Of a stretch of DNA of 10,865 bases, positions 1 through 10,045 are shown piece after piece. Source of the stretch: Tubulinosema ratisbonensis. Its lineage: Eukaryota; Microsporidia; Tubulinosematidae. Under the pieces are notes generated by a model that was not told the DNA's origin, ran no database searches, and worked only from the letters and a program-made list of their open reading frames with translations. The DNA is taken from contig RCSS01000500.1 in NCBI GenBank assembly GCA_004000155.1, positions 1 to 10,865 on the forward strand. The letters run 5' to 3'. How positions within the stretch are numbered: the stretch's first letter is position 1; every line of letters begins with the position of its first letter. The translations under genes and the position numbers were made by a program.

Positions 1-885
1 GAAAAGAAAGAAGAAACATATAAAAAAGAAACTAAAAATAACATTGAAGAGATTATCAAAAACAATAATTTAAAAAAACTACTTGAAGAAATGAGAATTC
101 GGTATACTAGTAGTTTAATGATCAATAAGTCACCGCCTTCACCTGAGTCATTCAAATTAATTTGTGAATTAGTTAAATTTGATCTGGGATTATTCAAAAA
201 AGCTTTTAAAACACTCAATTCACATTACAAAAAAAATAATCCAGATGATCCATTTTATAAGGAATTTAAAAATAATATTGAATTAAAAAAGAAATTTGGT
301 ACCCAAATTAATTCAATAATCAAAGATAATAAGTTTATTGTTGTAGGAGAAGAGAGTGGTAGCATTACTTTTCTTAAGAAAGATACTTTATTTGATATTA
401 AAATACAATCACCAGTTCATAAAATATCTTTTTTAGAGAAGGTAGATGACGTTAAATATTTATTAGTGACTGATAAAAATGGCTTTGCTTACATTCTTAA
501 CAATAATAAAATACTTTTTACCATAAAAGTAAGAGATTCTTTTGTTTATGGGATAGGAAATGTTAATCATATTTATTTTGCAGGGTATGATAACAGAATT
601 ACTCTTTTTAACAAAATAAATGATGAATATGTTAAAGTATTTCAAAAGGATTATCACACTTCAGAGATAATTAGTTTTATTAAGAAAGGTAAAAGATGTT
701 TAGCATTGAGTAAAGATGGTATTTTTTCTGAAGAGAGTCATGGTTATGTCAGTAAAATGACTTTATTTCCTAAAGAAGTAAAGTATTTTAATGACTTATT
801 AATTTATAAAGAAAACAATGATTTACATTTTTATAAATTTGATAAAGAAAGAAAAAAAGAAACAAAAAAAAATCTATTTTACTAA
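1..885 (+). CDS. 3' part of a gene for a probable beta-propeller (WD40-like) protein, 5' end outside window
   Basis: The frame is open from base 1 to the TAA at 883-885, giving 294 residues. The first ATG in the window is at 91, but the lysine/glutamate-rich frame runs upstream of it without a stop, so the true start is probably outside the window. Residues 1-30 are highly charged and could form a coiled coil or linker. About 48-100 look alpha-helical. From about 110 to 280 short beta-strand-like segments recur in the style of propeller blades: a Val-Val-Gly-Glu-Glu-Ser-Gly-Ser turn near 114-121, then Leu-Leu-Val-Thr-Asp-Lys-Asn-Gly near 154-161, and Tyr-Phe-Ala-Gly-Tyr-Asp near 192-197. These resemble the G-x-I/L strand pattern of divergent WD40 proteins. 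No classic Trp-Asp dipeptide is present and I do not recognise the family. The C-terminus is Lys-rich. No signal peptide or membrane span is visible in the part seen. Coding status is fairly sure; function is unknown. Confidence 0.8.
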   Translation, partial: EKKEETYKKETKNNIEEIIKNNNLKKLLEEMRIRYTSSLMINKSPPSPESFKLICELVKFDLGLFKKAFKTLNSHYKKNNPDDPFYKEFKNNIELKKKFGTQINSIIKDNKFIVVGEESGSITFLKKDTLFDIKIQSPVHKISFLEKVDDVKYLLVTDKNGFAYILNNNKILFTIKVRDSFVYGIGNVNHIYFAGYDNRITLFNKINDEYVKVFQKDYHTSEIISFIKKGKRCLALSKDGIFSEESHGYVSKMTLFPKEVKYFNDLLIYKENNDLHFYKFDKERKKETKKNLFY

Positions 886-1495
886 AAAACAAATGGTCAA
901 AAACTTCTTTTGTGGATCAAAAATTTTTTACAACAATATTTGTAATTTCTTATATAGCTTATCTCAAGGACTTATATTCTGATTTATACAAAATTCATAA
1001 CATTTTTAAAATGTACACATATCAGCGTTTGAGGTTATCATAATTTGCGACTAAAAAATTTTTTCTCAAGAGAAAAGTTGCATTACGACACAACAGAGTA
1101 TGGCGAGCATTTCGTATGTTTAAAAAAGAAGTATACTAGCAATAGTAGAACATATTAGAGATTTTGTAGAAAAATAGCGAATCTTTCGTCATACATGCTA
1201 AAAATTCAATACAGGCTCTAACTAAAACCTGCAAGAAAAGTTAAAGTTTAGCAGTCAATAAAATGTTTATGTGAGTTAGGGATGAAAACTTGTAAGTAAA
1301 ATGAGCTGTATCTGTTATAAAGAAGCATAACATAACATATATCTCCTAGTAAATGGATGATTTTATATTGCATAGAAAGGGTGTAGCGATATATTCTTGC
1401 ATGGATTTTCAATTCTTAGGCAACAAAAAAAGGAAGATATATCTTTGTCAGTAATAGAAAAAAAGCTTTAGATAATACAAAGACTTTTTTTAATT
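886..1495 (+). pseudogene. Possible decayed transposase relic (ISXO2/Merlin-like order of motifs)
   Basis: This stretch, especially 1021-1440, is visibly richer in G and C than the DNA around it. Read in one plus-strand frame (codon starts divisible by 3) it looks protein-like but carries many stops (1041, 1137, 1143, 1146, 1167, 1242, 1272, 1293, 1302, 1347, 1350, 1452, 1455). Segments in order resemble an ISXO2/Merlin (IS1016-type) transposase. Near 1104-1133 there is Val-Trp-Arg-Ala-Phe-Arg followed by Lys-Lys-Glu-Val, like the end of a zinc ribbon, but with the cysteines missing. Near 1245-1290 there is a Val-Asn-Lys-Met-Phe and Val-Arg-Asp segment. Near 1353-1380 there is Met-Asp-Asp-Phe...Arg-Lys-Gly, where the first catalytic Asp would be. 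Near 1404-1446 there is Gln-Phe-Leu-Gly...Lys-Arg-Lys-Ile-Tyr-Leu, like the WvFG strand. The spacing from ribbon to Asp is about 78 codons, which fits that family. No terminal repeats were found and the match is by eye only. The frame could be spurious. Confidence 0.3.
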
Positions 1496-2963
1496 TTTAA
1501 TGTACGTTTAAATAAAAATATCGATAGAATGAAGGTGTTTGATGTTTTTGAAACTCATTAATGGCCATAAATTAATACTAAAAATTAGAAATATGACACT
1601 ATATTGTTTTTAATAATTTTTAAAGATTACTATGAAGTATTTGTTGTAAACAAACTAAAAATTTAATTTTAACTAATAACAAGATAGACCCTGTGTAAAG
1701 TTTACTTAAACATTTAATTGCAAATCATTAAATAGGTATATAAAGGAAATAGTTTGAATTAGATTTAAAATGTTTTTAATTATTAAAAAAATTGAATTTA
1801 TTTATTTTACCTCTTTTAAGACATCTATTATAGAGTTCCGAAACTTTTTAATAATATTATCTTACCTGGGGTTTTTTAATCATATTTCTACTTTTGTTTA
1901 AGAAAAGATTTTGATTTAGAAGATCTTGAATAAATTATGAAAACTTTTTGTTGTTGTATTTACAAAAATGATTACAATATTTAATTATAATCGTTAAGTT
2001 ACTTATCATCTGTAACATTTTTTGTTTAGGACGTTTTTAAAATATGCATTTTAGTATTGATTAGAGTTTTTGAAAACAGATTGCTTATCAATTCTTTCCT
2101 TGATTATTTTCTTGAACATTAGAACGACTTTTTGAGGTAGTCTATATTTATAGCCTTACACAAATATTTTATAAATTTAGCAAATAATTTCAAAGAATTG
2201 TGTGGGTCTTTTAGAATACAACGAGATAATCATTTTAATGAATCGTTAAGCACTTTGCATTTCAAAAGGAACCTATGTGATTTTATTTATTTTAAAATTT
2301 TTATACCAAAAGATTATAAAAGTGTTTTTTATTTTAAAAAATATTATTGGTTTATGACTATTTATTTGTATAAAACAAGGATATTTTTTAATTGTATTTT
2401 TATATAAAAATTTTACTCTGGTTTACAATTCCCAATTTAAATATTTATGATTGACGACTATAAAACGCAAATTTTATTGGTTGATTTTAGGTTTTATTCA
2501 TTATATTATATCAGGGTCAACATTTTTAGAATATTATACTAAAGTATATAGCTGTTGTTATATTCCATTTAATGTTTTTTAACTTTTTGTCAACTTTAAT
2601 CATAGTTTCGGATGTTTTAAATAGTTCTATAATATTTTTGCCGCTGTAGATTTTTAACTTCGTTTTTAATAAATATTAAAATATGTAAAATTTTACTTTT
2701 CTGAATAGGATTTTTATTTGTAAAACAATTTTATAATATATTATCTCATTAAATTATGTCCTTTTTTCTAATTTTTGCGAAAAAATTATAGTAAGAGCAA
2801 AACAATATTATCTATTTTTATTTTTAATTTGACAATCATATAAAAATTTACCATAAAAAATTTTCGACGTTTAATTATTGATAAAAGTCAAAATTTTAAA
2901 ACTTTTAATAGTTTTTAGATGGGTGCCGATTTTTTATTTTGTGTTACAAATGCAACAAATTTT

Positions 2964-2983
2964 GCGGGATATAAAAGGCCCGC
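2964..2983. repeat. GC-rich inverted repeat with a TATAAAA loop
   Basis: GCGGG at 2964-2968 is matched by CCCGC at 2979-2983, with the 10-base loop ATATAAAAGG between. Five consecutive G-C pairs are unusual in DNA this AT-rich. The loop contains a perfect TATA-box core. It could be a hairpin, a flanked TATA element or chance; no gene follows that would explain it. Confidence 0.4.
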
Positions 2984-4336
2984 TAAGCTTTACAATGTTT
3001 CTTAAATTTTACAATAAAAAATCTTATTTGAGCTAACATAATGAATAGTGCAATTCAATAGAAATAGAATTTAAAACTTTCATAATGCGTGAAGAAAACC
3101 TTTCAAAGATTTCAATCTAAAGTGTAATTAATGCGATTCCTAAAATTGTGTTTTCAATCTAAGGATATTATTATTATTTGTTGGCTGAAAATTTTGATCA
3201 TCACCAAATATTGATTTAATATTCTTTGCTTTTTTATTTTTTATTGCAATGGTTTAGCTACCGTATTTATGTTTTAAAAATCAGATTTGTTTTATTCGCT
3301 AGCTCATAAGTGCAAGTTCTTCTTGTTATATTTCTCACAAAGCTTTTTAGATAGATATTTAGGAATATTGAATAAATAGTAGTGTGTAGAAGGGTTGAAT
3401 ATAAATATGATAAAGGATTTTTTAGAATCATCATTCAATCAGATAGAAGAAAAAATATAAATAAGCTAAAAAAATGATATTGAATAATTTTAATTATTTT
3501 TTTAATCATAAAAAGATGAATTTGTAGCCATCGTTAGTAAAATCTTATTTTGTAGTATAATGAAAATTAATTATTTTTTAATAACATTTGTAAAAATATA
3601 TTTATTTTCTGTTTTTCGTTCTTTTGTTTAATTAAATATTCTTTTACATTTTAATTATTAATGAAATTAAAAACTATTTAGATTTATGATTATGAATCAA
3701 AGAATTAGGTATTTATAAGGGATCTTTAATATTTATAAAAATTATATTTAAAAGGGTTTTACTATAAATGATATACAAAATTAAGACGATTTGATTTTTC
3801 AGCAATCATTTTTTTATTTATTTAATAATTTTAATTTAATCTTATGCTACCTGCTCGCCCGTTATTTTTGCATTTTATTTCGAGGAAATAGTTTTAATAC
3901 TTATTCTTCATGAAAATTTTATGGTATTATATATGATGTTAAACAATAAAAATGACAGTTTTTTAAAATGCCTTAAATCTTTTATATTTCAATAAATATG
4001 ACACAAATTCTATAAAGAATTTTTACTCTAAAATAGAAGCTTTTTTAAAAGCATACAAACAAAACTTAAAATGAAAAAATTGTCTTTGTGAAATGCAACG
4101 TATATTTAGTAGGGATTCTTAAACCGTATATATAGTGGTATTCGTGTACTATACCTTGTGATCGGTCAAATATTTTTCAAATTTAAATTTATTATATTAA
4201 AAGGTTGTATATTAAATTAAGAAGATAATAGTTATGTTCTTTCCTTCAACATAAATGGAAAAATTTCTTAAATTGATAGCAATGATCAAGGTTATCCAAA
4301 TTTAATGTAAATACTCCAATTTATTTAGATAAAAAA

Positions 4337-4347
4337 TTCTGAGAACA
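4337..4347 (+). promoter_or_regulatory. Candidate upstream element TTCTGAGAACA shared with the paralogous gene
   Basis: TTCTGAGAACA ends 37 bases before the ATG at 4384. It contains the 9-base dyad TTCT-N-AGAA. The paralogous gene on the other strand has TTCTAAGAACA at 10084-10074, 29-39 bases before its own ATG, differing at the central base only. The sequence just upstream is also loosely alike in the two (TTTATT a few bases before). Because it is dyad-symmetric and precedes both paralogues, it may bind a dimeric regulator. Alternatively it is merely residual similarity left by the duplication. Confidence 0.4.
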
Positions 4348-4383
4348 TAGTAATGAAATTTAAATAAATTTAAATTCAACTCC

Positions 4384-4824
4384 ATGTTTTTAATGTATTT
4401 GGCGTTCACTTTAGAATCTGACAAGACACGTAAAGATACTGTTTGTTCACTGAATAGAATATCAGAAGAACTAGGTTTAGAACACCGTAAGGTCATTGCA
4501 CAAGAGATGGGTATGCTATTATATTCGGAATTGAATAAACTTGCAGCTGCTGACAATATAGATAAGTTTTCTCAATGCGACAGGCATATTACAGTTGATT
4601 TTCTGAAATCACCGGGTTTTATAATCCAAAGATTTGGCGAAATCATAATTCATCGATTCTGCCCCAATCCTATTTCTCACTCGGAATATAAAAAAGCTAT
4701 CCTTGTTGAGTTAGAGAAATGGGAAAAAATTGGGCGAGGTGACCAAACGGTAATGAATATATTTCTTGATTTACTTNAAATAAAGAGAAACGTTAAAAAT
4801 TTTTCATGTTTTTATTTTTTTTAA
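4384..4824 (+). CDS. Small protein of unknown function, member A of a two-copy family (NPISH family)
   Basis: I do not recognise this protein. The first ATG after in-frame stops (TAG TAA TGA at 4348-4356) is at 4384. The first ten residues are hydrophobic (Met-Phe-Leu-Met-Tyr-Leu-Ala-Phe-Thr-Leu) and could be a short signal peptide or a buried helix. A mixed helical region follows with Asn-Arg-Ile-Ser-Glu-Glu at 24-29 and Glu-Met-Gly at 41-43. The most conserved part is residues 92-131: Asn-Pro-Ile-Ser-His at 95-99, then Glu-Tyr, a Glu-Leu-x-x-Trp helix (109-113), Gly-x-x-Asp-x-Thr-Val-x-Asn-Ile-Phe (117-127) and Leu-Leu. Here 20 of 40 residues are identical to the protein at 9581-10045. The codon at 4777-4779 is NAA. 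If N is T the protein ends after Leu131, exactly at the end of the conserved block. The 14 residues after it are AT-driven and unlike the paralogue, so I think 4779 is the real end. The full open frame to 4824 is given because the base is undetermined. Confidence 0.75.
   Translation: MFLMYLAFTLESDKTRKDTVCSLNRISEELGLEHRKVIAQEMGMLLYSELNKLAAADNIDKFSQCDRHITVDFLKSPGFIIQRFGEIIIHRFCPNPISHSEYKKAILVELEKWEKIGRGDQTVMNIFLDLLXIKRNVKNFSCFYFF
4779..4784 (+). terminator. Candidate polyadenylation signal AATAAA overlapping the probable stop
   Basis: AATAAA begins at the third base of the ambiguous NAA codon. If that codon is TAA, the signal overlaps the stop, as it does in the two minus-strand genes of this window. 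This is also indirect support for a stop here. Confidence 0.4.
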
Positions 4825-5430
4825 AGTTATAATTTTTACTTCTAAACCTTGCAGGGTTAAAAATATAAAGAAATGTGAAAAATAAATAGAATTTTTTACT
4901 GTCACTTCGAAAAGCCCGTTTTCTAAAAAACTTATGAAAACAACCTTGTTTATTTATGTAATCATATACATTTTATAGAATACTTTGCATTTTGTAAACA
5001 TTAGGAGACCTAGAAGGTAAGGTAGACTTAAGTAGTCAATAGAACATAAATATGATAAAAAATCAAAGTATTTAACTATGTAAACAATATATAGTAAAAT
5101 ACTTTTGATGCTTCTTGCTATTATGAAAAGTTTAAAAATCAAATTACGACGTATTTATGTTATATGTACAAACATTCTATTCTTAGACAATTAAAATATA
5201 TATTTGTTCAATGGATTTATAATTTTTAATTCCAAATTTAAGAAAGTTTTATTTTTTGAAACCATTTTTTTGCAAATTAACAGTTTTTTAAAATATAAAT
5301 GACAATTTTTAAAAATTACAACATAAAAAAAACTTTTCAGATTAAAAAATATCTTAAGGTTTTTAAAAACATTCTTAAAAATTTTTAACTAATGTTGTAA
5401 ATAAACTAACANNNTNAATAATATCATTCA
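4825..5430. other. AT-rich region between two convergent genes, with unresolved bases
   Basis: This is the stretch between the plus-strand small gene and the minus-strand nucleoporin gene, whose 3' ends face each other. No gene is seen. It contains one member of a degenerate dispersed repeat (5012-5070) and unresolved bases at 5412-5414 and 5416. An open minus-strand frame at 4954-5142 is AT-driven, hydrophobic and crosses the repeat, so it is not called. Confidence 0.6.
5012..5070 (+). repeat. Degenerate dispersed repeat, copy 1
   Basis: Bases 5012-5053 align without gaps to 8078-8119 with 30 of 42 identities; 8 of the 12 differences are transitions. Bases 5045-5068 (CATAAATATGATAAAA, then TCAAAG) also match 7644-7664 with small gaps. 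The 14-mer ATAAATATGATAAA at 5046-5059 recurs exactly at 3401-3414. Both long copies carry a TAG at the same place, so the common ancestor was non-coding or already broken. Confidence 0.4.
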
Positions 5431-5436
5431 TTTATT
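5431..5436 (-). terminator. Candidate polyadenylation signal AATAAA overlapping the nucleoporin stop
   Basis: On the minus strand the stop TAA (5437-5435) is followed directly by TAA, forming TAATAAA. The last two bases of the stop are the first two of AATAAA. The gene at 9581 has the identical arrangement. Confidence 0.45.
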
Positions 5437-7129
5437 ATAAATGTTCTACCTCATAAACATAAACCATCTCATTCTGATCATATTCAACAAACTTTCTATC
5501 TTTACAGCTTTTAAGCCCCCAAACAAACCTTTCTATACCACAATCACTAACCACATTATAAACATAGACTCTACATCTTTTGTTTAAACCTGTGCCGATT
5601 GGATCTAAGCACTTAACTGTTTCCTTCGAGAAAAACAATTTGGTTTGAATGTTTTCTAAGTAACAATCGTTTGCCTTNACACTTTCTAAATATTCTAATT
5701 TACCTTCCTTAAAAAGAATTATTAGATTTACGTTACTTAGTTTTGGTAATGAATCTTGGCTTGGGATTGTTTCTATCTCAGAAGGTTTGGTTGATTTTTC
5801 TCTTAAATCTAATTTGACGTACTCTTCTGATTTTTTGATAAATTTTGGTTTAGTAAACTTTTTTACTGGCAAAACTTCTTCTTCTTTAAATTCTTCTAAG
5901 TTTAATTCTTCTAAAGAGTAAGGATCTCTTTTGATCTTTGCTTCAACGTACTGAGCAATCTGATCAGACACTTTTACTTCATTTTGAACAAAATTAGAAG
6001 AAGTGTAGGAAGGTTGTGTGAAAGTAGAAGTAAAAGAAGGCTGAATGGGGGTTGGCTGATTAAAAACAGAAGTAGATGTTGGGAAAAGAGACGATGAAGG
6101 CTTAGTTTGAGTAAAACCACTGCTAATTGTTTGAGGAGTGCTAAACATAGAAGTAGTCCCAGTATTTATATTTTGAGTAGAAGAAGGGGTGAAAATAGGA
6201 GTAGAAGGTGTAAAAATAGAAGTAGAAGGGGTACTACTTNTAAATAAAGAACTGGTTTGATTTAAATTACTCTGATTAGCAGTGCTTAATGGAGTGGGAT
6301 TAGTCAAATTAGAAGAAGAAAATGTAGAAGTAGTAGGAGTATTTAGCGTAGAAGGAGTGAATGAAGAGGTAGGTTGATTGAATATAGAAGAAGTAGGTGT
6401 AGTGTTAGAACTAAAAATAGAAGAAGAAGGAGCACTGCTTGTAAATAAAGAACCTGTTTGACTCATAGAAGAAGGATTTAAGTTAGAAGTAGTCATAGAA
6501 GGAGAAGTATTTAAATTAGAAGAAGTAAAAGAAGGTGTAAAAGAAGAGGGGGTAGTAGAACTGAAAATAGAAGAACCACCCAACCCTAAAGGTTTATTCT
6601 CCTTAGTCATAGCCCCAAAAGAATTAACAGCACTCTGCGCAGGCTTTCTTCCTAAAGAATAATCTTCTAACCTCAACTCAAAAGTACTTCTATCCTTGTA
6701 ATCACTCATAAGTGTGATATCAATGAAAGTTTGATATTCATACGAACCCATTTCTTTTTGCCTTGTAGGAGTATATTTTGGTTTATTCGTACCTTTTTTT
6801 ACATCCAAATCAAATGATTGTGAATAAGGAAAAGAATGGATTGTGCTTTGTTGGTTAAACAAAGGTTTATTTTCACCAAAAGAAGACTGGAACAAAGGTT
6901 TTTGCTGAGTGGTAAATGGGGACTGAGCGAAGGATGACTGGTTAAATTGGGATGGATTGTTTGGTTGGAATGGCGACTGAGTAAAGGATGACTGATTAAA
7001 CTGTGTTTGTTGGAATGGTTGATTAAAATTCTGGTTTGGTTGTTGCTGTCCGAATAAGTTTTGTTGGAATGGTTGGTCTTTTTTTTCTTCTGGTTTAAAA
7101 ATGTTTTGGTTAAAAAAGTTGTTATTCAT
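5435..7129 (-). CDS. NUP98: Nup98/Nup145N-type nucleoporin with GLEBS motif and C-terminal autoproteolytic-type domain
   Basis: This is a 564-residue nuclear-pore protein. Nup98-family proteins form part of the permeability barrier, anchor to the pore scaffold and hold the mRNA-export factor Gle2/Rae1. Residues 1-100 are Gln/Asn/Phe-rich. Residues 113-165 match the Gle2-binding (GLEBS) motif, with Phe-Glu-Leu-Arg-Leu-Glu-Asp-Tyr at 150-157 and Gly-Arg-Lys at 160-162, very close to the family consensus ELRLEDY...RK. Residues 166-380 are Ser/Thr/Pro-rich with repeated Ser-Ile-Phe, Ser-Leu-Phe and Ser-Phe units. Only three true Phe-Gly pairs exist (26, 84, 171). Residues about 460-564 fit the C-terminal Nup98 domain: Pro-Ile-Gly-Thr-Gly-Leu-Asn at 510-516 parallels PxGxGLN. 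The end, Val-Tyr-Glu-Val-Glu-His-Leu, parallels the VxHF that precedes the self-cleavage site. The protein stops there, so no Nup96 part and no cleavage are expected. It is shorter than human Nup98 and the larger yeast homologues. Residue 484 (GTN) is Val whatever the undetermined base; residue 297 (ANA) is unresolved. The ATG at 7129 is the first in frame and follows a CCC motif. Confidence 0.92.
   Translation of the reverse strand: MNNNFFNQNIFKPEEKKDQPFQQNLFGQQQPNQNFNQPFQQTQFNQSSFTQSPFQPNNPSQFNQSSFAQSPFTTQQKPLFQSSFGENKPLFNQQSTIHSFPYSQSFDLDVKKGTNKPKYTPTRQKEMGSYEYQTFIDITLMSDYKDRSTFELRLEDYSLGRKPAQSAVNSFGAMTKENKPLGLGGSSIFSSTTPSSFTPSFTSSNLNTSPSMTTSNLNPSSMSQTGSLFTSSAPSSSIFSSNTTPTSSIFNQPTSSFTPSTLNTPTTSTFSSSNLTNPTPLSTANQSNLNQTSSLFXSSTPSTSIFTPSTPIFTPSSTQNINTGTTSMFSTPQTISSGFTQTKPSSSLFPTSTSVFNQPTPIQPSFTSTFTQPSYTSSNFVQNEVKVSDQIAQYVEAKIKRDPYSLEELNLEEFKEEEVLPVKKFTKPKFIKKSEEYVKLDLREKSTKPSEIETIPSQDSLPKLSNVNLIILFKEGKLEYLESXKANDCYLENIQTKLFFSKETVKCLDPIGTGLNKRCRVYVYNVVSDCGIERFVWGLKSCKDRKFVEYDQNEMVYVYEVEHL
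6914..7000 (-). repeat. Tandem duplication inside the nucleoporin N-terminus (18-residue period)
   Basis: Residues 44-54 (Phe-Asn-Gln-Ser-Ser-Phe-Thr-Gln-Ser-Pro-Phe) recur at 62-72 with only Thr to Ala changed, an offset of 18 residues or 54 bases. It indicates recent unit duplication in the Q/N/F-rich repeat region. Confidence 0.7.
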
Positions 7130-7137
7130 TTTTGTAA

Positions 7138-7140
7138 GGG
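7138..7140 (-). promoter_or_regulatory. CCC motif just upstream of the nucleoporin start
   Basis: On the minus strand the ATG is preceded by TATCCCTTACAAAA; the CCC lies 9-11 bases before the A. CCC/GGG-type motifs immediately upstream of start codons are a known mark of microsporidian genes and are thought to lie at the transcription start. It supports the chosen ATG and the lineage. Neither small paralogue has a CCC at this distance. Confidence 0.45.
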
Positions 7141-7611
7141 ATAGAAAATAAAAATTAATAAAAAAATAATTAATTATTTTTTAATTTGAATTTTAATTTG
7201 TATTTATTTATTAAATTAATGATTGGAGTACAAAGAAAAGAAATTTTATAGTTGGAATAAAAAATTATTTTAGAGACATGGATAATGTTAAGTGAGTTTA
7301 ATTATAACATATATAAAAGTATTAGTTTAATTAAAATATAGAGCAATATCTTTTTAATTGAAAAGACATCTTTTTTGCAAATTAAGTAATTTTACGGTTT
7401 GGTTTGTCGAATCAAAATATTTCTGTCTTGAGAAAATTTGCAGCAAAATTACTTTAAAAAATATTTAATTAAGTTTATGTATTGAAAACAATAATTAGAT
7501 ACATGTTATTATTTTTAAGTTGCTCAGAATGTTCAATCTCACGAAGAATTTTTTGCCATGTCTTTTATATAGAATATTAATACCTATTCATAAAGAAATT
7601 TACAGTAAAAT

Positions 7612-7668
7612 ATATTTAAGTGGATGTAATAAGCCAGAAAAATCATAAGCGATAAAAATCAAAGTTGT
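7612..7668 (+). repeat. Degenerate dispersed repeat, copy 2
   Basis: Bases 7644-7664 (CATAAGCGATAAAAATCAAAG, given here only as a match) align to 5045-5068 with small gaps, and the preceding 30 bases also resemble 5015-5044. The 15-mer AAAAATCAAAGTTGT at 7654-7668 recurs exactly at 8223-8237, about 100 bases downstream of copy 3. Confidence 0.35.
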
Positions 7669-8077
7669 GATGCTTGATTTTCGATTTAAAATATGAGATT
7701 TATGTAAAACAATTGTAAGAATTATAAATTCAAATAAAAATTAAATTCTAATTTTATTATACTATGATTTTTGTATATTGTTATTTTACTTCGTTCAGTT
7801 TTATTGTTTAATAATTGTAGTGAATACCGATGTTCTGTGCACGATAAGTTTTAAGTTTTTTATAAGATTTATTTTGGTTGAGTAATGGTTTATTAAAAAA
7901 AATTTTTAGAATGGTAGGTACAGAATCTTAGAATGAATATGTTATTTTTTTGCAAACATTATAAAAAGAATTAAATTGTATACAATAGAATACCAGGTAT
8001 CTTAAGTATATTTTTGTAGAAAATAGTTTTGTATAATTAGAGAAAAATGTAAATAATACTTAATGTGAGTGAAGTAT

Positions 8078-8119
8078 GGAAGTTAGAGTGGATTTAGGCA
8101 GTAAATAGAATAAAAATTT
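8078..8119 (+). repeat. Degenerate dispersed repeat, copy 3
   Basis: Aligns without gaps to 5012-5053 at 30 of 42 positions, mostly with transition differences. All three copies lie in the same orientation. What the original element was is not clear. Confidence 0.4.
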
Positions 8120-9199
8120 TTTACTTGTGTAAAGCTTATATTTAAAAAGTTAGAGGTATTGTACAATAGGAAATTTACTAATTATTATATAGCTTTTGTA
8201 ACTATAAACATCTTTTAGATCGAAAAATCAAAGTTGTATAAATTAACCACCAGCAAGACTGTGAATTTATATATTGTTTAATTCAAACTTATACTCAGTT
8301 TAAGAATGTTTTTTTAAATAAACAGATAGTAAAATTTAATATTTGTTTGGTGTTTTATTATTAATTTAATAGTAAAAAAATCTTTGAAAAATTATACAAA
8401 ATCACAAATAAAGAAAATAACTCCAAGTTGTACTAAAATATTAAACAAATAATAATGTACTTTTTATTTTCTCAAAATGAAAAAAGCTAAAATATATTTT
8501 ATAGTGTTATAAATTATTCAAATAACCACAAAATATTGGCTTTTAAAATAATATTAGCTACTAAATTGATTTAAATAAAACGCATATAATTCTTTGTGCA
8601 TTATATTTTGATTTTTTTAGAAATTAGTTATGTTGTTTTAGAATATCAAAGATCATAAATATTATCATCAAAAATTTTTTTAATTTATTTAATCTTTTAA
8701 ACTGTTAATATTTTAATAATAAATTACATCGATGTTTATAAAACAAAGAAAACAAATAACTCAGATTGATTGCACGCTTGTCTATTAAAAATCTTTTAAC
8801 TCATAAATTTTATTGATTTTAAAAAAAAGTTCAATACCATTTGTCAAAAAAGCATCATTCATTAGTATAAATATTTACTATTAAATTTGTTGTTAAAAAA
8901 CATCTCATTTAACTATTTAAGGATTGAAAATTTTTGAATATTTTCATTAATGCTTTCTTGCAAGCAAGTATAAGTTAAAAGTATTTTTTTAAACAAATCA
9001 ATAAGTAAATCGTTAAACGAAATATTATTAATATCTAAATTGCTAAAATATAAATAGATTTTATTCCAAATAAATAAAAATCTTCTTATCATATTTTTTT
9101 TAAAAGTGTTTTCTATACATCAGGTAGATTAAACATAAGCTTGAAAAGATTTTACGATTGTTAAGTAAAAAAAATTTAACCAAATAAAAATATTTAAAA

Positions 9200-9233
9200 T
9201 ATCACTATAGTAATTAATTCTGTTACAGTGATA
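9200..9233. repeat. Imperfect inverted repeat
   Basis: TATCACT at 9200-9206 is the reverse complement of AGTGATA at 9227-9233, with further weak pairing (GTAA/TTAC) inside the 20-base spacer. It could form a hairpin in RNA or be a palindromic binding site. It lies about 350 bases beyond the 3' end of the gene at 9581, so it is unlikely to be that gene's terminator. Confidence 0.35.
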
Positions 9234-9576
9234 GAATTAGTATAATTTTTTTAGATTATTAGTCTTTTTACTTTTTTATTTTTACTTTTCGTAAACTTGT
9301 TACCAAATAATAATAGAATTATTATTTTAGGTCTTGTATATTTTTTAAACAATTTTTTGTTTAAAATTTATATTTATCAAAACTTTGCCATTATAAAAAT
9401 AAACATAACACATAACACATACAATACTTTATCTAATTTAAATATTTGTGAATTGTTTTAAAACAAACGATTAATTGAAATTTAAAGATTAAATTATAAT
9501 AAAATTTTACTCAAAAAGTCAAAATAAATATTCAAATTGTTATAAATTTTTTACTTTTTGAAGTTTTAGAAATTTA

Positions 9577-9582
9577 TTTATT
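9577..9582 (-). terminator. Candidate polyadenylation signal AATAAA overlapping the stop
   Basis: On the minus strand the stop TAA (9583-9581) runs into TAATAAATAAA. The first AATAAA shares its first two bases with the stop and a second overlaps it downstream. The arrangement equals that of the nucleoporin gene. Confidence 0.45.
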
Positions 9583-10045
9583 ATATCATAAATTCATCTT
9601 CTACTCTATTCAGCAAAAATGTAAGTAATCTGGCAAAAACATTCGCAACAGTTTCATCGTTTTTGCCCACATTTCTCCAAATATTTAATTCCTTTTCAAT
9701 TCTTTTTATGAATTCTTGATGCGAAATAGGATTCATATTAAACCTACTCTTAAAAATTTTTCTCATTCTTCTGACTATAAAACTATGCGATTGCAGGTTC
9801 TCCATCCTAGGTTTATCATAGCAAACAAAAAATTTCTCTAAACTTAATGAATCCTTTAAATTTCTTGTCTTTACAATTAGCATTTTTCCCATGTCTTCAG
9901 ATTCCATTCTTCTAATAGGATTATATGAATCGCATTCCTTTGATATTCTGTATAATTTTTCTAAGCAAAGTTCTTCCCAAAGTCCATGTAACTGAGATGG
10001 TATAAAATAGAACAGTAGCATGGGCAGAGATAAACACTCAATCAT
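9581..10045 (-). CDS. Small protein of unknown function, member B of the NPISH family
   Basis: The protein has 154 residues and I do not recognise its family. The first ATG after an in-frame stop (TAA at 10063-10061) is at 10045. A second Met at residue 9 begins Met-Leu-Leu-Phe-Tyr-Phe, which lines up with the hydrophobic start of paralogue A, so translation may begin at 10021 instead. Residues 1-20 lack charged residues apart from Glu3 and could be a signal peptide. Residues 31-35 (Leu-Tyr-Arg-Ile-Ser) and Asp-Met-Gly at 51-53 align with Leu-Asn-Arg-Ile-Ser and Glu-Met-Gly of the 4384 protein. The block 102-141 contains Asn-Pro-Ile-Ser-His (105-109), Glu-Leu-x-x-Trp (119-123), Gly-x-x-Asp-x-Thr-Val-x-Asn-Val-Phe (127-137) and Leu-Leu, with 20 of 40 identities to paralogue A. 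It extends 13 residues beyond the block, ending in an acidic tail. There are basic patches at 91-101. No catalytic signature is evident. Confidence 0.82.
   Translation of the reverse strand: MIECLSLPMLLFYFIPSQLHGLWEELCLEKLYRISKECDSYNPIRRMESEDMGKMLIVKTRNLKDSLSLEKFFVCYDKPRMENLQSHSFIVRRMRKIFKSRFNMNPISHQEFIKRIEKELNIWRNVGKNDETVANVFARLLTFLLNRVEDEFMI

Follow-up and report, generated by a model that had tools for sequence, protein, structure and literature searches.

The question raised by contig RCSS01000500.1 of the microsporidian Tubulinosema ratisbonensis (assembly GCA_004000155.1), whose 10,865 nucleotides (nt) are here called the window, is whether two small open reading frames (ORFs) lying 4.8 kb apart in opposite orientation are relatives and, if so, what kind of protein they encode. 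ORF A occupies positions 4384..4824 on the + strand and comprises 146 codons, 131 residues being readable without doubt, and ORF B, as listed, occupies 9581..10045 on the - strand and encodes 154 residues. An earlier note on this DNA had described the two as divergent paralogues of an unrecognised protein family, sharing a C-terminal block in which half of the residues agree. Sequence comparison in the present analysis firmly supports an old pair of paralogues under constraint, coding for a protein not placed in any family, and this constraint is strongest in the C-terminal block.

Both ORFs lie where they had been reported, and the count given for the block was reproduced exactly: residues 92-131 of A (4657..4776, + strand) and long-form residues 102-141 of B (9623..9742, - strand) are identical at 20 of 40 positions, forming the signature NPISH...EL..W...G..D.TV.N.F..LL, whereas 1,000 shuffles of B yielded no ungapped 40-residue segment with more than 13 identities to A. 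Comparison of A with B by BLASTP yielded 40 identical (36%) and 64 positive residues in 111 columns, with 66.6 bits and E=1e-19, the top score among 2,000 shuffles of B being 25.8 bits. The block is thus real, and the alignment is wider than the earlier note had stated, defining a shared domain that spans residues 23-131 of A (4450..4776, + strand; own-genome match 7.0e-15) and long-form residues 31-141 of B (9623..9955, - strand), as placed by alignment with A and by own-genome search. The further N-terminal matches that had been pointed out, Arg-Ile-Ser and Met-Gly, also hold, with RIS (A25-27) and MG (A42-43) invariant between the two proteins, and the only 5-residue word common to both is NPISH. 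Judged by these alignments, A and B are homologues, namely paralogues.

Several properties of the reading frames bear on their coding status and on the age of the duplication. In simulated sequences of 10,865 nt, 155 consecutive codons free of stops occurred in 0 of 300 cases with a Markov model of intergenic DNA, and in 1 of 300 with a whole-window model. Nucleotide identity between A and B at codon positions 1, 2 and 3 was 0.50, 0.64 and 0.39 (109 codons); the second position is most alike and the third least, a pattern of protein constraint that, together with the alignment score, upholds the proposal of divergent paralogues in which selection has acted on a real domain. The same codon is used at 22 of the 40 identical residues, with 21.0 expected from independent draws from local usage. 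Silent sites between A and B look saturated. Because their resemblance does not exceed chance, whereas the C-terminal block keeps 20 of 40 residues identical, the duplication is old and the block has been kept by selection at the protein level. Codon-usage log-odds per codon were 0.022 for A and 0.054 for B, compared with 0.006 to 0.337 for four training genes and 0.062 for the ORF antisense to B. Between the flanks of the two copies, short matches only were found, the best being 32 nt at 81% identity (E 1.5e-4, upstream against upstream). The pairing of upstream with downstream flanks gave comparable values (best E 5.2e-4), and flank homology was rejected.

The ends of both ORFs require some revision. 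Microsporidian starts have been described as having a CCC- or GGG-like signal just 5' of the ATG or, in A+T-rich genomes, a strong A+T bias there (PMC10815200). In the long form of B, neither CCC nor GGG occurs in the 40 nt upstream of 10045, and CCC (10022..10024, - strand) lies directly 5' of the second ATG at 10021. Among three other genes, the Nup98-like gene of this contig and the ribosomal protein gene uL2 have CCC within 15 nt of the ATG, and an ORF beside uL2 has ACC only; CCC or GGG is present within 15 nt upstream at 6 of 202 intergenic ATGs. If B starts at 10021, its sequence and that of A share the opening M-[FL]-L-[MF]-Y-[LF], and the two align from residue 1. Given the CCC directly 5' and the alignment with the first Met of A, the start of B is probably the second ATG rather than 10045, and the probable coding sequence is accordingly 9581..10021 (- strand), with 146 residues. 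For A, the CTCC directly 5' of its ATG (4380..4383, + strand) falls short of a full CCC and would be no more than a weak version of the signal described in PMC10815200. An ambiguous base at 4777 falls in codon 132 of A (4777-4779), directly after the last conserved residue, and low-complexity A+T-rich codons follow. The C-terminus of A is therefore uncertain, and the 14 residues that follow are perhaps not protein. Ambiguous bases also occur at 5412-5416, 5678 and 6240, which is plausible for a 454/Illumina assembly such as that described in PMC6675976.

Whether the pair belongs to a larger family was addressed in 4,116,903 nt (236 contigs) of the published 7,555,974 nt (952 contigs; PMC6675976). 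Four protein searches, with A, B, residues 1-131 of A and the C-terminal part of B as queries, disclosed no member beyond A and B in these 4.12 of 7.56 Mb, and the first filter of each passed 2 candidates. A pattern coding for NPISH matched these contigs 5 times, compared with 3 times for its backward control; two of the 5 matches are A and B, two do not code for NPISH, and one lies opposite another ORF. This third NPISH match, on contig C108, was rejected, since it is opposite a 169-codon ORF and its own strand lacks any ORF of at least 40 codons there. A profile search of a protein database, by a method that relies on shared 5-residue words, recovered B alone among 90 candidates. The database does contain relatives of the organism, as uL2 of the same assembly matches T. 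ratisbonensis at 100% (247 residues), another relative at 88% and Anncaliia algerae at 81%. The same search with the C-terminal region of the Nup98-like protein had 98 candidates, none of them reaching E<=0.01, showing that it is too blunt for proteins evolving this fast. Because this control was also empty and A and B have a single 5-residue word in common, the database negative is uninformative on lineage restriction; in such genomes, 'no homologue found' carries little weight without a sensitivity control. Two peptide patterns matched 216 stretches in viral contigs, a search of prokaryote genome contigs picked out 69 stretches, and none of either set was confirmed as a relative. No literature on the pair was found by title or by the start of the abstract, the genes not having been searched by name. 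According to the genome report, T. ratisbonensis has 3,013 genes, 2,099 of them with a microsporidian orthologue (PMC6675976); with about 30% of genes lacking one, an orphan pair is ordinary and not surprising in itself.

The view that the proteins fall into no recognised family likewise held. Neither A nor B was matched by any Pfam, NCBIfam or PADLOC model at the cut-off or at E<=0.05, and searches of the PDB by sequence profile gave 0 matches at E<=10. In PHROGs, B had three matches, all with families of unknown function (E 0.029-0.44), and A had none. For B, the SPK domain (PF04435, DUF545) is similar in length and gave a weak match at residues 46-106 (numbered from 10021), but it was rejected as chance, with E=0.088, 13.3-13.4 bits against a cut-off of 22.1 and no match in A. 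RNase III and an N-terminal helical domain of a toxin, which together with SPK span E about 0.09-0.14, were likewise dismissed as chance, as was NETI (E 1.5); all were found with B or pieces of it, below the cut-off and absent from A. A likeness was also noted to the P-x-I-S...Y/F..RI start of the fungal Pcl-type cyclin box (PF08613). This idea was rejected, as no cyclin model was found for any of six pieces with the limit at E<=10, although HMMER filters discard most matches above E about 0.1; moreover, A and B end where most of the box would still follow. The two AlphaFold2 models, one for each protein, are all-helical, with mean predicted local distance difference test (pLDDT) scores of 49.9 and 54.4, and the protein is probably helical if these models are followed. 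Helices at the conserved core correspond (88-102, 109-127 and 131-147 in long-form B; 77-92, 99-116 and 121-130 in A), and the models disagree at the N-terminus, which in A is modelled as a single helix 2-29. Both models are below pLDDT 55, and fold searches gave no usable match.

What such a protein might do can be approached through its N-terminus and its composition. The earlier note had suggested that both proteins start with a hydrophobic stretch and are possibly secreted. A hydrophobic run of 8-10 residues is indeed present in each, with a best 8-residue hydropathy mean of 2.1-2.2; over 19 residues, the best mean reaches 1.41 in long-form B but 0.88 in B from 10021, the same value as in A. 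By eye, neither N-terminus has a basic n-region or a clear cleavage site, so that secretion is possible from the sequence but weakly supported. A is mildly acidic, with an isoelectric point (pI) of 6.1, and B from 10021 is basic (pI 9.2); with the preferred starts, each contains three Cys, and both lack an N-glycosylation motif. In Nematocida and other microsporidia, clade-specific host-exposed proteins and large families have been reported (Reinke et al. 2017, PMC5423893) that resemble A and B in being fast-evolving and paralogous, with no known domain and a hydrophobic N-terminus. A large host-exposed family, as defined in that account, comprises at least 10 homologous members per species with signal peptides or transmembrane domains (PMC5423893), whereas the present pair has two members in the searched part of the assembly and a doubtful signal sequence.

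On this basis, a tentative reading is that A and B are ancient duplicates in a fast-evolving family of small proteins whose helical domain is host-exposed or binds at the parasite surface. The product of each gene would be largely helical and about 130-146 residues long, and its last helices, around NPISH and EL..W...G..D.TV.N.F..LL, may serve as conserved core and binding face. The short hydrophobic N-terminus could conceivably act as a minimal signal sequence, and the helical domain might then leave the parasite and bind a host partner or one at the parasite surface, much like the clade-specific host-exposed proteins known from Nematocida; the charge divergence of the copies would suit different partners. 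Several observations weigh against this proposal. The codon-usage scores do not tell A or B from noise, the N-terminal hydrophobic run is short, and the two members found make no large family; the basic B and the few cysteines fit an intracellular or nuclear protein equally well, and the agreement of the two low-scoring models is not independent, since the same two sequences stand behind both. Equal, likewise tentative, weight is given to the explanation that A and B represent an ordinary intracellular core protein, not secreted, whose copies have diverged past recognition by sequence; a helical subunit from the nucleus, the kinetochore or a transcription complex would be an example. Core proteins here drift as far, as illustrated by the C-terminal domain of the Nup98-like protein, which scores 23.1 bits against a Pfam cut-off of 28.4 and is likewise without a database relative, and the short hydrophobic start, the basic B, the few cysteines and the missing glycosylation motif all suit this explanation. 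Against it, no Pfam or NCBIfam model reaches the cut-off for either protein, and a duplicated, highly diverged pair would be unusual for a core subunit. Even as these two possibilities stand, the host-exposed one is put first because of the Nematocida analogy and the matching hydrophobic starts.

Two further explanations appear unlikely. Improbably, one copy, most likely A, might be a pseudogene, or A might end at its ambiguous codon, leaving the other copy alone functional; the ambiguous base and the low-complexity codons behind it would agree with this, but A/B similarity reaches the last Leu-Leu before that codon, and the 155 stop-free codons persist despite the A+T-rich window. A similarly slim chance is given to an origin of the domain in a mobile element or virus, with A and B as domesticated or decaying copies. 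In its favour, 160 sequences of this genome have been classed as transposable elements in the genome report (PMC6675976), old dispersed repeats lie in the flanking intergenic stretches, and the copies are oppositely oriented at some distance. However, only two copies were found in the contigs searched, the codon pattern shows constraint, and no relative from viral or prokaryote contigs was confirmed, the PHROGs matches being weak and confined to B; nor does a repeat pair frame the ORFs among the repeats listed, which covered 20 of the 42 direct families and 25 of the 271 inverted pairs. Just as slim is the most far-reaching form of the host-exposed proposal. Under it, A and B would be the first members to be seen of an undescribed family confined to Tubulinosematidae, whose helical, secreted proteins would have a new fold around the conserved signature, and each of the two would suit a distinct partner in the fly cell.

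Should both proteins be produced and exported, the pair would offer candidates for factors of host interaction in a parasite of Drosophila melanogaster, a host amenable to genetic work. Otherwise, the pair still exemplifies the drift of duplicated microsporidian proteins around a fixed short core.

The remainder of the window contains other features. Between A and B, 5435-7129 (- strand) encodes the repeat-rich nucleoporin of Nup98 type, with two ambiguous bases inside; its Pfam matches, the Nup98 autopeptidase domain at E 8.8e-5 and the Gle2-binding sequence at E 0.0038, are weak and below the cut-off. At 1-885 (+ strand), running off the contig end, lies the C-terminal part of a possible beta-propeller protein with sub-threshold Pfam matches only (best KNTC1_N, E 0.0069). 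Rfam and tRNA scans of the window gave 0 matches, and a microsporidian small-subunit ribosomal RNA model had no match in the contigs searched. A dispersed short repeat at 7541-7617 (up to 7512-7620) recurs at 13 more places on 12 other contigs, on both strands and at 76-83% identity; an alignment of the 14 copies reveals a common core with degraded ends, pointing to an old interspersed element. A second dispersed repeat, at 1123-1430 within a long intergenic stretch, has 3 other places at 69-72% identity. The intergenic stretches 886-4383 (3.5 kb, 22% G+C) and 7130-9580 (2.5 kb, 18.6% G+C) contain no convincing ORFs; with a mean spacing of about 2.5 kb per gene in the published assembly, long intergenic stretches may be usual here.
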